DNA from: Verrucomicrobiia bacterium
GTDB lineage: Bacteria > Verrucomicrobiota > Verrucomicrobiia > Limisphaerales > DASXHY01
Assembly: GCA_035629175.1 (NCBI GenBank)
Contig: DASPIL010000091.1
Coordinates: forward strand, 1-64,000
DNA: 64,000 nt
Direction of reading: 5' to 3'
Positions 4,701 to 11,236 of this stretch are shown one piece after another. Both the position numbers and the translations under genes were made by a program. Each line of letters begins with the position of its first letter. Position 1 is the first letter of the stretch. The notes under the pieces are model-generated. The model had not been told where the DNA came from and made no database searches. It saw nothing but the letters and a program-made list of their open reading frames with translations.

Positions 4701-6617
4701 TTAGTGGCCATGCTTCGGGGAAACCAGCCTGAAAAACCTTGGTTCCGCTACGATGATGTTGGTGATTGAAGCGGTGGTCCCATCGCCGGTCAAAGCGGTA
4801 TAAGGAATGTCAGCCCATGAATTACCAAACGGTTCTGCGGCGGCTTGCAATTGATACGCAATCCCGGGAATCGTTGGAAACCGGAGAACCACCTGTCCGG
4901 TTTGTTGACCAAGTGATAGATGAAGTGACGGTTGGTTGAGCATGACAAAACTTTGATCGAACCCGGCCGCGATCTGTGGAACTCCAATCAAGCCGACGGG
5001 AACGGTGATTTGACCGCGATTGTTCCAACCCCATCCAACAATGCGACCGTTGCGCTTCAGCGCCAGGCTGTGCGGATTGCTACCACGGCCGGCGGCAATT
5101 TGAATCACGTCGGCCACATCGTCGGGCACGTTTGTTTGGCCCACTTCATTCGCACCCCAGGCAACGACCGTTCCATCCGACCTAAGCGCCATGGAATAAT
5201 GTGCCCCGCACGAAATCGCAACGACGTTGGACAGTCCCGGCGGGACGTTTGTGACGCCGAACAGGCCGGATCCCCAGGCAATCACGCTGCCGTCGCCGCG
5301 AAGTGCAACGCTATGTGCAGAACCGGCAGAGATCGCCACAACATTTGTCAGGCCTGGAGGTATGTTCGTAAGAGTTTCAAGGCCAAAAGCCGTCACTGTC
5401 GCATCACTGCGGAGAACCAGACTGTGGGAAGCGCCAGCCGCAACCTTAACAGCATCAATCAACCCTGAGGGAACCTTTGTTTTGCCCCAGGACGATGAGC
5501 CCCAGGCAACCACCGTCCCGTTGCCAAGCGCAGCGAGGCAATGGTGCGAGCCGCAGGCGATGTCCGAAACATTGGTTAATCCGGAAGAGACTGTAGCCTT
5601 GACGAAGTCGATCTCACCCCACGTCTGGAGGGTGCCATCAACGTGCCGCACGACATTGAAACCGAAGCCGCCTGCAATTTGTGCAACATCGGACATTTGC
5701 TGTGGGGTGACGCACTCGCCGGATGTGTTCCGGCCCCAGGCTGACACGACGCCGTTGCTGCTCAGCGCAAGCGAATGATAGGAGCCGGCTGCGATCTTCA
5801 CCACATTTGTAAGGTTTGAAGGAATGGTGTTCTGCCCGTGATTGTTTAAGCCGCCCCAGCCTACAATTGACCCGTCTTCCTTGAGTGCCAGCCGATGCGT
5901 TCCGTTCCCTGCAATCTGTCTCACTGCGCTGACAGATGCGGGAACGAATGCCGACCGGCCCCAGACGAGGACTTCCCCGTCTGCACGCAGGGCCATGCTG
6001 TAGTCAAACCCCGCTTCCACAGCCACAATGTTCGTAGCCGCCGGAGGAACGTTCGTTTGCGTGTTATCATTCCGTCCCCACGCGACGACGCTTCCATCAC
6101 CTCGTAAAGCCAGAGTGTGATCACCGCCCGCTGCTACGGCCGCAACGTTATTGAGACCTGGGGGAACCGTGCACTGGCCGAATAAGTTATAGCCCCACGC
6201 GTGCACCGTGCCGTCCGCACTGAGGGCAACGTTATGGCTCCCGCCAGAGGCGATCGCAATCACATCGGCAAGTCCCGCCGGCGTATATGCCAGATCCCCC
6301 CAGCTTAGCACTGTTCCGTTTGCTTGAAGCGCGAGGTTGTGAAAGCGCCCGGCGGCAATGGCTATGGCGTTGGTGACGTTTGGGGGAATCGTTGACTGTT
6401 GCTGTCGATTACTTCCCCACGCGATCATCTTTCCCGAAGCAGTCAATGCCAGGGTGTGATCTTCGCCGCCTGCGATATCGATGATGGCTTCGTCGGCGGG
6501 CAGATACGGGATGACCATCTCACCCCATGCTACAAGCTGCGCCGCGGGAGAGTGTTGTGCTGCGAATCCCGCCATCAACATTAGCAGCAGAGTAAGCAGC
6601 TCAGGGGATGGTCTCAC
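4701..6617 (-). CDS. Secreted RCC1-repeat protein, probable double beta-propeller
   Basis: 638 residues beginning with a signal peptide (about 1-25, LLTLLLMLMAGFAAQ). The body is a run of RCC1-type units, each with an IAAG-x-HxLAL half and a G-xVxAWG half. I count fourteen W-G (once F-G) turns, fitting two seven-bladed propellers. A C-terminal domain of about 80 residues (LSLGQQTGQVVLRF to RFFRLVSP) resembles the beta-sandwich tails on many secreted verrucomicrobial proteins; this is recalled, not tested. The role is unknown; binding to proteins or carbohydrates outside the cell is plausible. Its start faces the neighbouring + strand gene, so the two are divergently transcribed. Confidence 0.85.
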   Translation of the reverse strand: MRPSPELLTLLLMLMAGFAAQHSPAAQLVAWGEMVIPYLPADEAIIDIAGGEDHTLALTASGKMIAWGSNRQQQSTIPPNVTNAIAIAAGRFHNLALQANGTVLSWGDLAYTPAGLADVIAIASGGSHNVALSADGTVHAWGYNLFGQCTVPPGLNNVAAVAAGGDHTLALRGDGSVVAWGRNDNTQTNVPPAATNIVAVEAGFDYSMALRADGEVLVWGRSAFVPASVSAVRQIAGNGTHRLALKEDGSIVGWGGLNNHGQNTIPSNLTNVVKIAAGSYHSLALSSNGVVSAWGRNTSGECVTPQQMSDVAQIAGGFGFNVVRHVDGTLQTWGEIDFVKATVSSGLTNVSDIACGSHHCLAALGNGTVVAWGSSSWGKTKVPSGLIDAVKVAAGASHSLVLRSDATVTAFGLETLTNIPPGLTNVVAISAGSAHSVALRGDGSVIAWGSGLFGVTNVPPGLSNVVAISCGAHYSMALRSDGTVVAWGANEVGQTNVPDDVADVIQIAAGRGSNPHSLALKRNGRIVGWGWNNRGQITVPVGLIGVPQIAAGFDQSFVMLNQPSLHLSLGQQTGQVVLRFPTIPGIAYQLQAAAEPFGNSWADIPYTALTGDGTTASITNIIVAEPRFFRLVSPKHGH

Positions 6618-6729
6618 GAGATCGGAGAGTAGTGTGACGGCTGGATTTTTGGAAGTGGGGATTCAACCGCGCGGCGGACAGGCACGACCCGCCGTAGGAA
6701 ACGGCCGACCTGAGAACTCTATTTCCGGC

Positions 6730-7395
6730 ATGCCAATGCATGGATACATTCGGGTCATGATCAAACTCGCTGCCGCGGCTTTCGTGTTTCTTGGCGGGTT
6801 TGCTGTCATGGTGCTGGAGATTGTTGGCGCCCGCTATCTCGCGAAAGATTTCGGAGGAACGTTCTATGTATGGATCAGCCAGATCGGAATCATCCTGGTT
6901 GCGCTCGCGCTCGGCTATGGCGTGGGCGGTGCGCTTGCGGACAAGTTTCGACGCGCTGGATTTCTTGCAATACCGCTGACCATGGCGGGTTTGTTCATCC
7001 TGTTCATCCCCGAGTTTACCCCGCCACTGGTGGATGCAATCGTGATGCGGCATCCGCTGGATCGCGAGATTCCCGCGTTGTGGCAGAAACTGGATCCTGT
7101 GCTTGGCAGCACACTGGTGTTCTTTCTCCCGTGCTGCGTCCTGGCCGTGTTATCGCCCTACACCATTCGACTTGCGGCGACGCGGCTTGAAACGGTCGGG
7201 GCCATCAGCGGCCTGGTCTACGCAGCCAGCACGGTTGGAAGCATCGCAGGCGTCTTTGGATCAGGTTACATCCTGATCGATTACTTCGACATCTCCGCAA
7301 TCTTCCGCTGCACGGGGGCGCTCGTTCTAGCGCTTGCAGGATTGAGCCTCATGATGGATCGATGGATGATCAAACCCGAACACCGCAACCCATGA
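6730..7395 (+). CDS. Membrane protein, N-terminal half of fused MFS/spermidine synthase family
   Basis: 221 residues from ATG 6730; ATG 6757 (giving MIKLAAAAFVFLGG) is an equally good start. About six membrane helices. The segments FAVMVLEIVGARYLAKDFGG and GLVYAASTVGSIAGVFGSGY are characteristic of the membrane domain that usually precedes a spermidine-synthase-like domain in one polypeptide. Here that second domain is a separate gene whose ATG overlaps this stop (ATGA at 7392-7395), so the two are translationally coupled and probably form one unit. The substrate is not known for this family; polyamine synthesis and export has been proposed for related fusions. Confidence 0.75.
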   Translation: MPMHGYIRVMIKLAAAAFVFLGGFAVMVLEIVGARYLAKDFGGTFYVWISQIGIILVALALGYGVGGALADKFRRAGFLAIPLTMAGLFILFIPEFTPPLVDAIVMRHPLDREIPALWQKLDPVLGSTLVFFLPCCVLAVLSPYTIRLAATRLETVGAISGLVYAASTVGSIAGVFGSGYILIDYFDISAIFRCTGALVLALAGLSLMMDRWMIKPEHRNP

Positions 7396-8312
7396 AACGC
7401 GCTTCCGCTGCTTTCTTAATGGTTTCGTTGGCGTGGATCTCTGCCATTCCCCTGCGGGCGCAGATGGTTTTCCAGAAGTATTCTCCGTATCATCATGTGC
7501 AGGTGATTGACCAGCGTGGCATGCGGATGCTGAGCTTCAATGGAACACAGGAGACACGCATGTCGCTCGCAAACCCGCTGCAGGGACACTTCGAATACAC
7601 CGAGTTCTTCCATATGCCGTGGCTTTGGAACAGGAGCATGAAGCGGGTTCTAATGATCGGTCTCGGCGGCGGCAGCACGCAACGCTCGTTCCTGCACTAC
7701 TACACCAACACGGTGATCGATACGGTGGAGATCGATCCCGTTGTTGTTGATGTGGCAAAGCAGTTCTTTTCCGTTCCAGAATCGCCACGTCACAAGATTC
7801 ACAACGAAGATGGCCGCGTCTTTCTTCGGCGGACCCGAGAACAGTACGACGCCATCATGCTGGACGCTTACACTACGACGCGCTACGGCTCTTCAATCCC
7901 GCCGCACCTGACCACGAAGGAGTTTTTCCAGTTGGCGGACGGCCACATGACCACCAACGGCGTGCTGGCTTACAATGTGATTGGACAGGTGCAGGGCTGG
8001 AAGGCGGACATCATCGGCGGAATGTTCCGAACGATGAAGGAGGTGTTCCCGAATGTTTATTTGTTTCCGGCGGCGTCGAGCAGAAATGTGGTGCTGGTCG
8101 CAACGAAATCGGCAGAACGGGTGAATCTGGATTGGGTGCAGCAAGAGGCGGCTGGATTGGCGAGCTCAAACATCGTGCGCCTACCCGCCTTCGGGATTCG
8201 GGCGCTATCGTTCAGGGATGTGACTCCAAGTTCCGCCGCTTCCGCGCCTGTTTTCACGGATGAGCACGCACCCGTTGAGCGCTTGATGCGCAGCGGCGCT
8301 ACGGGGCGATGA
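7392..8312 (+). CDS. Spermidine synthase-like methyltransferase-fold protein with signal peptide
   Basis: 306 residues from ATG 7392. Residues 1-24 (MKRASAAFLMVSLAWISAIP, ending LRAQ) form a signal peptide, so the product is probably periplasmic. The rest matches SpeE-like enzymes: glycine loop VLMIGLGGGSTQ, acidic strand end TVEIDPVVVDVAKQFF, and EDGRVFL, followed by the active-site region DAIMLDAYTTTRYGSSIP, where true spermidine synthases have a D-x-x-D-P-type motif. Whether it makes a polyamine is therefore unproven. It overlaps the membrane-domain gene by four bases. A signal peptide on this fold is unusual because its usual donor, decarboxylated SAM, is cytoplasmic. Confidence 0.8.
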   Translation: MKRASAAFLMVSLAWISAIPLRAQMVFQKYSPYHHVQVIDQRGMRMLSFNGTQETRMSLANPLQGHFEYTEFFHMPWLWNRSMKRVLMIGLGGGSTQRSFLHYYTNTVIDTVEIDPVVVDVAKQFFSVPESPRHKIHNEDGRVFLRRTREQYDAIMLDAYTTTRYGSSIPPHLTTKEFFQLADGHMTTNGVLAYNVIGQVQGWKADIIGGMFRTMKEVFPNVYLFPAASSRNVVLVATKSAERVNLDWVQQEAAGLASSNIVRLPAFGIRALSFRDVTPSSAASAPVFTDEHAPVERLMRSGATGR

Positions 8313-8385
8313 TGAGCCGCGTAAGTGTTGCAGAAAGTTTTTTTGTCCACCGTGCCCCTGAACTTCGACATAAGTGGTGAGAACG

Positions 8386-8937
8386 ATGGATGTGACGGCT
8401 CGCGAAATCAAAGAGCTCGCCTGCAGCGATCCCGCTGCGGCGACGGCCGTTCTCATTGAACAGCTTTATGAACGCATTTACGCCTTTCTGCGGCGCCTCA
8501 GCGGGAGCGACTCCGAGGCGGAGGACCTTACGCAGCAAACGTTCCTGCGCGTGCAACGCGCCCTGCCGTCGTTCACCGGGCGGTCGTCAGCGTCATCCTG
8601 GACACACGGCATTGCGTATCATGTTTATGTGGACTGGCGCCGCAAGCACCGGCCTGGCGAGCGAGCGTCGGATGAATGGTGGGCTGAATGTGTGTCAAAC
8701 GACGTCGGACCTGATGCGGCTGCTGCGACATCTGATCTCGCGCAACGACTGTATCGGAGCGTCGATCAGCTTCCCGCTGAGTTGCGCGATGCGGTGCATC
8801 TTCACTATTTCCAGGGTCTGACACTCGATGAGACGTCGGAGGCAATGAACATCGCCTCATCCACAGTGAAGTATCGACTGCGCAAGGCGCTGGAACGATT
8901 GCAGCACGCATTGGCGGACGAGCGAATTCATTCCTGA
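8386..8937 (+). CDS. RNA polymerase sigma-70 family factor (ECF-like)
   Basis: 183 residues from ATG 8386, chosen because a GGTGAG stretch precedes it; an in-frame GTG at 8374 is the alternative. Region 2 is seen at about residues 25-90 (DSEAEDLTQQTFLRVQRAL, then WTHGIAYHVYVDWRRK) and region 4 at about 125-175 (LPAELRDAVHLHYFQGLTLDETSEAMNIASSTVKYRLRKA in pieces). It lacks regions 1 and 3, as in ECF sigma factors. A gene for a single-span membrane protein with an anti-sigma-like N-terminus follows 13 bases downstream, suggesting a sigma/anti-sigma pair. Target promoters are unknown. Confidence 0.9.
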   Translation: MDVTAREIKELACSDPAAATAVLIEQLYERIYAFLRRLSGSDSEAEDLTQQTFLRVQRALPSFTGRSSASSWTHGIAYHVYVDWRRKHRPGERASDEWWAECVSNDVGPDAAAATSDLAQRLYRSVDQLPAELRDAVHLHYFQGLTLDETSEAMNIASSTVKYRLRKALERLQHALADERIHS

Positions 8938-8950
8938 AACTATTGCGGTT

Positions 8951-9856
8951 ATGAAACTTGATTCCAACCAACTGGAGCAGCTATTGCGAAGGGCTCCACA
9001 GCCGCGCCCGCGTTCCGGGCTAAAGGAGGATCTTCTGATGAATGCTCGAATTCGAAAGCCCCGCGAATCTGTCGCAACCCCGGCCGTGGTTGCGGGCAGG
9101 AGACGTTGGTGGTGGCCTGTTCTGATTCCAGCGGGACTGATGCTCTGCTGTATGGTGGTCGTTGGAATTCAGCAGCGGCAAATCGCCGCCCTGAACGCCA
9201 GCATCGCCACTCTTCGCGAGGACGCGCAGCAAACTGTGCAAGAACGTTTGCCGTTGGAAACGATGGAGCCGGAAGACTCCCGCACCGTTGCCGGCGACGA
9301 AATCAAGCTCCTCCGCGAAACGGCGCTGCAATTGAAAGCCGAGGTCACAGAGTTGGCGCGATTGAAACAGCAGAACGAGGAGATGCGTGTCCGGCTGGCA
9401 ACAACGCCGGGAAACTCGACGGAGGAAGGGCTGGCGCTTGCAACGGCGAAGGAACGGGCCCAGGCAATTCAATGCGTGAACCATCTGAAACAGGTTGGAC
9501 TCGCTGCGCGGATATGGGCCGGTGATAACGAGGATCGGTATCCGAAAGACATTGTGACGATGAGCAATGAGCTGAGCACGCCTCGAATTTTGATATGTCC
9601 GGCGGATGGGGAACGGAGACCGGCAACTGATTTCGCGTCGTTCACGGCGGCTAACGTTTCGTACGAATGGTCTTCTGATCCACCCGCTTCCGAAATCGAG
9701 CCAGCGCGTGTACTGACCCGTTGTCCCTTTCATGGCACCGTCGGCCTGGCCGATGGCAGCGTTCACCTCGGTGCCGCGAAAGAGCATCCCGAATGGTTTG
9801 TGCAACGTGACGGAAAGCTCTTCATGGAACGCAGTCCTGCTGCGCAAGAGCGATGA
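8951..9856 (+). CDS. Single-span membrane protein with pseudopilin-like head; candidate anti-sigma factor
   Basis: 301 residues. A basic cytoplasmic N-terminus (1-53, with NQLEQLLRRAPQPRPRSGLK) is followed by one membrane helix (about 54-73), a long coiled coil (about 74-150) and a globular domain (about 170-285). The globular part has the signature of DUF1559-type pseudopilin heads: QCVNHLKQVGLAARIWAGD, Cys216 in ILICPADG, and H261-G-x5-D-G ending at 269. The usual prepilin leader (GFTLIELL) is absent. Position directly after a sigma gene suggests the N-terminus restrains sigma while the head senses the periplasm; this is inference. Its stop overlaps the next start (ATGA). Confidence 0.65.
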   Translation: MKLDSNQLEQLLRRAPQPRPRSGLKEDLLMNARIRKPRESVATPAVVAGRRRWWWPVLIPAGLMLCCMVVVGIQQRQIAALNASIATLREDAQQTVQERLPLETMEPEDSRTVAGDEIKLLRETALQLKAEVTELARLKQQNEEMRVRLATTPGNSTEEGLALATAKERAQAIQCVNHLKQVGLAARIWAGDNEDRYPKDIVTMSNELSTPRILICPADGERRPATDFASFTAANVSYEWSSDPPASEIEPARVLTRCPFHGTVGLADGSVHLGAAKEHPEWFVQRDGKLFMERSPAAQER

Positions 9857-10509
9857 TCCTAAGAATTGCTCTCCTGCTGTTGAGTGTCGCAGCCGCAGCA
9901 TTGCTGGTCGCCGCGTTTGTTCAACAGCGAACCCTGGCGGAATTGCGTTCTCAGGAAAAAGCCCTTCAGCTTGATCGGCGCGCGGCGGAGTCGATGACAA
10001 ATACTTCGCCACCAGAGGAGCCATCGGTTGCTATTGATCCGGGAATCAAAACGGATTTGCTGCGGCTGCGCAGTGAAGTCGGCAAGTTGATGGCGCTGCG
10101 CAAAACGCTGGAGTCCGTACGCTCTGAAAATGAAGCTCTGAAGGTGCAACTTGCAGCGAAGGATTCCGCCAGTTCTCTTCCCGCCGGGTATGTCCGCACC
10201 GGCGAGGCGCAGAATGTTGGGATGGGAACGCCAAAGCAAACTTTGGAGACGTGGCTGTGGGCGATGCGAACACGCAACCGTGAGATGGCGCTGCGGGTGT
10301 TTACGCCTGAAGCCGCGGACGGAGTCGCCAAGGCGTTCGATGACGGCGACTTCCGCCTTCCGGATTGGTTTTATTTGATCAAGGAGGAACCATTGGCTGA
10401 AGGTGGGGTTTGTCTCCACTTGGGGACTGTTCCCGGACGTGAATGGGATCCTATGGAAGTCCGATTCAAATTCATCGGCGGCGGCTGGCGGATTGCTGAA
10501 CGTTTCTGA
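9853..10509 (+). CDS. Membrane-anchored coiled-coil protein, third gene of the sigma operon
   Basis: 218 residues, not recognised. One N-terminal membrane helix (about 4-22), a linker, a coiled coil (about 65-102, heptad-like RLRSEVGKLMALRKTLESVR) and a C-terminal domain (about 122-218) opening with TPKQTLETWLWAMRTRN and ending in an R-F-K-F-x4-W-R-I pattern reminiscent of NTF2-like folds. Built like the preceding protein (helix, coiled coil, head), so the two may associate through their coiled coils. The start overlaps the previous stop by four bases, so it is co-translated with the sigma factor partner. Confidence 0.6.
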   Translation: MILRIALLLLSVAAAALLVAAFVQQRTLAELRSQEKALQLDRRAAESMTNTSPPEEPSVAIDPGIKTDLLRLRSEVGKLMALRKTLESVRSENEALKVQLAAKDSASSLPAGYVRTGEAQNVGMGTPKQTLETWLWAMRTRNREMALRVFTPEAADGVAKAFDDGDFRLPDWFYLIKEEPLAEGGVCLHLGTVPGREWDPMEVRFKFIGGGWRIAERF

Positions 10510-10666: not shown

Positions 10667-11236
10667 ATGAAACGGATTTCCTTTCTGCTGTTACTCTTGC
10701 TCTGTTTTGCGAGCGTTCCCGCGAGCGCACAGGATGCCGCCACTGAAGAGCGGTTTAACAAGTTGGCCGCCCAAATCGAGGTGCTGATCGAGGCGAAGGA
10801 CGCACAAAATCGAAGGATCGAGCAATTAGGCAAGGCGATCGACGCATTGCAGCAGCAAATGAACAAGCCCACCGCCGCGTATGCGTCAGCGGAGGACGTG
10901 AAGGCCTTGTCCGAAAACCTTAAAGAGATCGATCGCAAGCGAAAGGCGGACAACGAAAAGATACTTGAGGACATCCGTCGGGAAGTGGGAACGATCATTC
11001 GGTCAGCAACCCCGCCGTCACGCCCGTCGACGTCACCCACAACCCAATCCGGCGGAGGACTTTCGGACAAGGGCTACGAGTATGAAATCCAGTCTGGCGA
11101 CACGCTCTCCTCGGTCATTGCGGCCTACCGTGCTGAAGGAATCAAGGTGAGCCTGGATCAGGTGAAGAAAGCCAACCCGGGGCTGAACGAGAATCGACTT
11201 CGCGTCGGACAGAAAATTTTCATTCCCGCGCCGTAA
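10667..11236 (+). CDS. Secreted coiled-coil protein with C-terminal LysM domain
   Basis: 189 residues. Signal peptide at 1-22 (MKRISFLLLLLLCFASVPAS). Residues about 24-105 form a long charged helix likely to be a coiled coil. A Ser/Thr/Pro linker (about 110-130) leads to a LysM domain (about 138-188: YEIQSGDTLSSVIAAYR, then ANPGL and LRVGQKIFIP). LysM binds peptidoglycan, so the protein probably attaches to the cell wall in the periplasm. About 155 non-coding bases separate it from the preceding operon, suggesting its own promoter. Function beyond wall binding cannot be told. Confidence 0.85.
   Translation: MKRISFLLLLLLCFASVPASAQDAATEERFNKLAAQIEVLIEAKDAQNRRIEQLGKAIDALQQQMNKPTAAYASAEDVKALSENLKEIDRKRKADNEKILEDIRREVGTIIRSATPPSRPSTSPTTQSGGGLSDKGYEYEIQSGDTLSSVIAAYRAEGIKVSLDQVKKANPGLNENRLRVGQKIFIPAP

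Follow-up and report, generated by a model that had tools for sequence, protein, structure and literature searches.

ECF sigma factors contain sigma regions 2 and 4 only, within about 180 to 200 amino acids, and they are commonly, but not universally, cotranscribed with a cognate anti-sigma factor from an autoregulated promoter. The class I anti-sigma domain (ASDI) is longer than 50 amino acids and is built of four helices. CnrY, a class II anti-sigma factor, operates with the sensor CnrX and the sigma factor CnrH in the CnrYXH system of Cupriavidus metallidurans, and it uses two helices to wrap around regions 2 and 4 of sigma (PMC4598750, PMC7406223). In Rhodopirellula, salt stress, cold shock, and heat shock elicit a response of DUF1559 genes, with no link to an anti-sigma factor (PMC2754498). 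We found no published pilin-headed or DUF1559 anti-sigma factor in the open-access literature, in line with the initial annotation of the DNA considered here, which knew of no described sigma/anti-sigma system with such a head.

The window, meaning the whole stretch of 64,000 nucleotides that was analyzed, belongs to contig C91 in the 5.4-Mb genome of a bacterium of Verrucomicrobiota, and the host order comprises soil and water bacteria. Three genes follow each other on its plus strand, an ECF sigma gene (8386 to 8937), a gene for a 301-residue protein designated P2 (8951 to 9856), and a gene for a 218-residue protein designated P3 (9853 to 10509). The sigma reading frame runs from an ATG at 8386 to a stop codon at 8935 to 8937; translation could also start from an in-frame GTG at 8374, and the ATG is favored because of the position of the predicted promoter. 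Thirteen nucleotides separate the sigma stop codon from the P2 ATG at 8951, and the P3 start at 9853 lies inside an ATGA shared with the P2 stop codon. These frames lie at the positions where a sigma gene, a single-span protein 13 bases further on, and an overlapping third gene had initially been annotated. The 183-residue sigma protein matches Pfam region 2 (E value of 1.1e-15) and region 4 (3.8e-13), and the profile of its family matches the solved ECF sigma factors SigW (1.8e-25) and CnrH (1.4e-12). Judged from sequence, it has the size and the two regions of an ECF sigma factor, and the overlapping gene order and conserved promoter are likewise those common for the group.

The locus resembles CnrYXH in being a three-part ECF unit, in the very short two-helix cytoplasmic segment predicted on a single-span protein, and in the presence of a separate predicted periplasmic partner. 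It differs in the pilin-type head and long coiled coil that P2 itself carries, in that P3 is NTF2-like and not a CnrX, and in gene order, and no sequence match to CnrY was found. We read the locus as a known kind of switch, an ECF sigma/anti-sigma pair, with an unreported type of outer domain. Our best explanation draws on observations of gene order, co-occurrence, homology, predicted folds, and promoter conservation. It is that the three genes form a positively autoregulated ECF unit in which the N terminus of P2 is the anti-sigma factor, the periplasmic sensor part is formed by the pilin-type head, and P3 is its partner; we consider this probable, and the tests described below support the interpretation first given for this DNA.

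Just upstream of the operon, at 6481 to 8312, two overlapping reading frames (6481 to 7395 and 7362 to 8312) divide between them the sequence of a fused MFS/spermidine-synthase-like protein (NF037959), and on the minus strand at 4701 to 6617 lies a gene for a protein consisting mostly of RCC1 repeats (PF13540, 13 stretches). Directly downstream, at 10667 to 11236, is a gene for a secreted protein that has a coiled coil and, at its C terminus, a LysM domain; this gene is not kept beside the operon elsewhere.

Recurrence and partial loss of the operon

When 293 genomes from the order were searched, near-full-length P2 proteins turned up in many families, and 30 such loci were examined. An intact sigma gene is directly upstream of P2 in 26 of them, mostly with a 4-nucleotide overlap and at most 38 nucleotides apart, and P3 lies downstream of P2 in 29. 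The four exceptions for sigma comprise a frameshifted gene (L059), a locus starting at a contig end (L039) whose genome has its sigma gene on another contig, and two loci from which the gene is absent (L060 and L062). Scanning named genomes identified another set of 13 full P2 loci, 11 with all three genes, and all 13 derive from Pedosphaera/Verrucomicrobia subdivision 3 or from other Verrucomicrobia MAGs, one of them labeled only as "bacterium." Clustering of the neighboring genes found no fourth conserved neighbor. No member of the sigma clade was found outside the order among 384 genomes of the class and, as far as searched, the unit is restricted to this one order. The initial annotation had called for a survey of the gene order across Verrucomicrobiota and held that its reading would fail if P2 homologs mostly lacked an adjacent sigma gene. 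The reverse was found, with the order recurring in many families and the sigma gene in place at most loci.

The window genome does have many pseudopilin-like genes, such that an ordinary pseudopilin gene beside an unrelated sigma gene, brought together by chance or by annotation, might be suspected. A chance neighbor is excluded because the gene order recurs across many families, and the co-occurrence, the homology of the N terminus, the conserved promoter, and the lack of a prepilin leader described below also refute this explanation, to which we assign a negligible probability.

Co-occurrence was assessed by counting the sigma clade at E values of 1e-50 or lower and a strong P2 N terminus at 1e-7 or lower with the first profile residues included. 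Within the 293 genomes, the sigma clade is present in 43 and the strong N terminus in 39, all of which are inside the 43 (Fisher P value of 2e-44, with kinship ignored). The four genomes with sigma only are explained by contig ends (G072 and G213), by a deletion that joins sigma to the coil of P3 (G113, locus L255), and by a variant with a weaker N terminus (G248). Conversely, three genomes are missing both the sigma gene and the N terminus of P2 while keeping the span, coil, and head of P2 together with P3 (G069, loci L060/L106; G231, loci L062/L109; and G133, locus L265). These are draft genomes in which an assembly error is possible in each single case, and three different families (f15, f16, and f53) concur. 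Co-occurrence and correlated loss together indicate that the N terminus is tied to sigma and that the body of P2 is tied to P3.

Because the body of P2 and P3 persist without sigma in those three genomes, they may also have a role of their own. It could then be argued that P2 and P3 act chiefly as envelope effectors forming a coiled-coil complex on demand, with the sigma factor mostly serving to express them and the anti-sigma action providing feedback. The two genes do remain open reading frames in the three sigma-less genomes, and the strict promoter described below occurs outside the operon only at the background rate. However, weaker promoters would escape the strict pattern, and decay may be under way at all three loci without sigma, L106 having retained the promoter and only the first 22 sigma codons. 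We regard the effector explanation as unlikely.

Partial deletions of the operon have occurred repeatedly. In L106 (about 5880 to 6010) the start of sigma is fused towards P2, in L255 (2085 to 2834) sigma region 2 is fused to the P3 coil, and in L109 and L265 sigma and the P2 N terminus are gone.

The N terminus of P2

About 50 residues precede the membrane span of P2, ending in a basic stretch. The anti-sigma-like part is residues 1 to 36 (8951 to 9058, plus strand), with predicted helices at residues 5 to 14 and 24 to 33 (mean pLDDT of 80 to 90 in the AF2 model) and the motif LR-x-AP-x-P-x-P-x-x-L, which across the family reads (I)E-x-x-LR-x-AP-x-P-x-P-P-x-GL. The span itself, at residues about 54 to 74 (9110 to 9172, plus strand), was assigned from the sequence, with basic residues on its N-terminal side, and lies in a model helix covering residues 54 to 98. 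P2 from the window matches the NCBIfam anti-sigma model NF052375 with an E value of 8.8e-5 and 22.6 bits, which is far under the curated cutoff of 100 bits. The same model matches 15 of 26 P2 family members, all below the cutoff, the best at 2.5e-5. An RskA protein of the same order matches PF10099 at 2.7e-25 and NF052375 at 9.7e-38 and therefore shows what the latter model stands for.

After P2 itself, the proteins that the N-terminal profile matches best are anti-sigma factors, the RskA protein among them, and most are encoded right behind ECF sigma genes (L081, L085, L257, and L260 to L264); for L258 and L259, no sigma gene was detected within the stretch fetched around them. With hhalign, P2 residues 5 to 79 align with residues 43 to 118 of verrucomicrobial anti-sigma factors (96.3%, E value of 1.6e-9), an alignment that is not independent, as its partners were retrieved with the same N-terminal profile. 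Since the alignment covers the later part of the anti-sigma domain, P2 looks like an anti-sigma factor minus the first helices of that domain. RskA/NF052375-type proteins, including those in the same verrucomicrobial genomes, have a homologous segment, LRxLPxxPxPxxxxxxV, with a membrane span after it, and P2 is unlike them in lacking the first helices of the domain, in carrying a pilin-type head, and in scoring under the family cutoff.

By these sequence comparisons, the N terminus of P2 is homologous to recognized anti-sigma factors. This homology, and the finding that all 39 genomes with a strong N terminus also have the sigma clade, bear out the early description of the short basic N terminus as anti-sigma-like. 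The cytoplasmic part, of about 36 to 50 residues with two predicted helices, is smaller than an ASDI; two short predicted helices in under about 50 residues correspond in size to the class II, CnrY-like, type. Searches of PDB sequences with the N-terminal profile gave no useful match to a solved anti-sigma factor and none to CnrY, a class too short and diverse for such an absence to exclude kinship.

Exchanged outer domains on the same N terminus were observed in five genomes. At four loci (L101, L251, L252, and L254, each in a different genome), a sigma gene of the same clade accompanies the same N terminus and span, which here lead into a different outer domain, about 330 residues long, for which Pfam gave no significant match in L101, L251, and L254. 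A fifth genome (L253) has the same sigma clade and N terminus with a third type of outer domain. The promoters of these loci score 8 to 9 of 10. In the sigma tree, whose bootstrap is not fully settled, the five sigma factors group at 82/99 support inside a clade that is split from other ECF sigma factors at 98/94. With three kinds of outer domain on one and the same N terminus, these loci show how the sensors of anti-sigma factors are exchanged. The swapped domain resembles LolA/MucB by eye, but that name was rejected because Pfam gave no match. One swapped-domain anti-sigma gene has, downstream of it, a gene for a true prepilin whose pseudopilin head is of the same type (L083, 1 to 275, G013:C2); this gene may be there by chance.

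The outer parts of P2 and P3

Beyond the span, the AF2 model of P2 (mean pLDDT of 85, pTM of 0.54) has helices at residues 54 to 98, 110 to 151, and 157 to 192, the last running into the head. The first two would form a periplasmic coiled coil at residues 75 to 151, broken near residues 100 to 108 (9173 to 9403, plus strand), and the pilin-type helix and head extend over residues 157 to 292 (9419 to 9826, plus strand). With VIA-align, the model matches Thermus PilA4 with a Z score of 7.2 (residues 137 to 292, 115 aligned, root mean square deviation [rmsd] of 9.2) and Neisseria PilE with a Z score of 4.0; Foldseek with the full model gave no match at an E value below 0.001. The head is similar to pseudopilins of its own genome (66% over 44 residues, E value of 6e-12), and Pfam DUF1559 (PF07596) gave no match to P2 of the window at an E value of 1 or lower, while L116, a leaderless relative, does match PF07596. 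The fold match and the sequence relation to pseudopilins together make a pilin-type head well supported.

P2 has in common with DUF1559 and type IV pseudopilins the CVNNLKQxGLAxRIWA pilin alpha-helix, the CPAD and C-terminal H..DG motifs, and the predicted fold. It is unlike them in lacking a prepilin leader, in having the membrane helix of the pilin replaced by another span and a coiled coil, in its extra invariant Cys258, and in the tie of its head to a sigma operon. No leader was found beside the span in P2 or its orthologs, where GFxxxE-like strings in some proteins are not adjacent to the span, and the reading of P2 as an ordinary secreted pseudopilin was rejected. The outer domain is thus, on predicted structure and sequence, well supported as a type IV pilin fold without a prepilin leader. 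The initial annotation, which spoke of a leaderless DUF1559-type head, was right in the pilin-type head and the missing leader, and is corrected here in that P2 of the window has no Pfam DUF1559 match of its own.

Cys175, Cys216, Cys258, His261, Asp268, and Gly269 are invariant in 28 of 28 P2 heads. Of 94 pilin-type stretches, only 4 have the Cys258-x-x-His261 pair in the alignment, and for most of the 94 the alignment does not extend that far. A metal or redox site at the Cys and His residues of the head is possible.

P2 is not alone in the order in joining a pilin head to a non-pilin anchor, a theme seen more widely there (L115, 5314 to 6450; L116, 5794 to 6396; and L117, 5215 to 6450). Like P2, these three have leaderless heads with the same CPxH motif, and unlike P2, they have no anti-sigma segment and no sigma gene of the P2-linked clade in the stretch fetched. 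L115 and L117 have a DUF4234-like multispan membrane domain, assigned by inspection in L117. Several P2 proteins (L041, L044, L045, L046, L048, L053, L054, and L056) end in a proline-rich tail with at least one copy of M(S/D)xxxxxRYGLxP, a tail that P2 of the window does not have.

P3 has an N-terminal span and a coiled coil, both similar to those of P2, followed by a predicted NTF2-like domain at residues 125 to 218 (10225 to 10506, plus strand; pLDDT of 88.7 for the P3 model). The assignment of the domain is based on Foldseek (probability of 0.99), on VIA-align (Z score of 8.7, 91 residues, rmsd of 2.8), and on weak Pfam DUF4878/SnoaL_2 matches in members of the family. With a typical ligand-binding fold, a span and coiled coil similar to those of P2, and a place behind P2 in 29 of 30 loci, P3 could itself be the sensor through its NTF2-like pocket, as CnrX is for CnrY, leaving P2 as a true anti-sigma factor whose head serves only for oligomerization or anchoring. 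Yet only Arg73, Pro127, and Trp212 are invariant in P3, and the stronger conservation of six residues in the P2 head suggests that the head has an active function or a structural one. Sensing by P3 is a possible explanation, if a less probable one than our best explanation as a whole.

Promoter and proposed switch

The predicted ECF-type promoter of the operon (8341 to 8374, plus strand) reads TTTTGTCCA-N16-CGAC(ATAAG), with CGAC ending 16 nucleotides before the sigma ATG. In 27 of 28 loci, TTTTGTCCA-N16-CGACTAA was found 12 to 23 nucleotides before the sigma start with at least 9 of 10 core bases, compared with 0.25% of shuffled upstream regions. Genome-wide searches used exact pattern matches only, a pattern with one mismatch having given mostly background. 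TTTTGTCCA-N16-CGAC is present once in the genome of the window, at 8341 to 8369; it occurs 16 times at the operon and 4 times elsewhere in the 43 sigma-positive genomes, and the 33 other genomes have 7 scattered sites. The exact form TTGTCCA-N16-CGACTMA is at the operon in 10 of 17 sigma-positive genomes searched, once elsewhere, and in none of 9 sigma-negative genomes. The strict pattern search found no sigma target beyond the operon, and since the consensus is at background outside it, these data point to autoregulation with no other strong target.

The switch that we infer, including the binding of sigma, the signal, and the mode of release, would work as follows. The cytoplasmic N terminus of P2, which is related to the verrucomicrobial anti-sigma domain but shorter, would keep sigma inactive at the membrane. 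Outside, the coiled coil and the pilin-type head, devoid of the pilin's own leader and membrane helix, would receive the signal, and P3, anchored by its span and coiled coil, would contact P2 as its periplasmic partner. A signal at the P2/P3 complex would cause the N terminus to release sigma, by conformational change or by regulated proteolysis, in analogy to RseA, RskA, and CnrYXH; RseP is encoded in the genome of the window. Freed sigma would then transcribe its own operon from TTTTGTCCA-N16-CGACTAA, yielding more sigma, P2, and P3. The head might even sense its own kind, such as free pseudopilins or the state of a pilus or type II secretion machine in the periplasm. A pilin domain of structural origin would then have been taken over as sensor for an ECF sigma factor that mainly targets its own operon, although we consider this quite improbable.

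If the proposed switch is correct, the pilin head joins the known sensor domains of anti-sigma factors. The very abundant and functionally unclear pilin-like heads of Verrucomicrobiota would thereby gain a role other than secretion that is open to testing. With only three genes and one defined promoter, the unit is small enough to be examined in a reporter host.

The single TTGTCCA-N16-CGACTMA site found away from the operon (G191:C658) is a second copy of the promoter, near position 2842 of L212, in front of a different, non-sigma gene region, and may represent a further target or a duplicated promoter.
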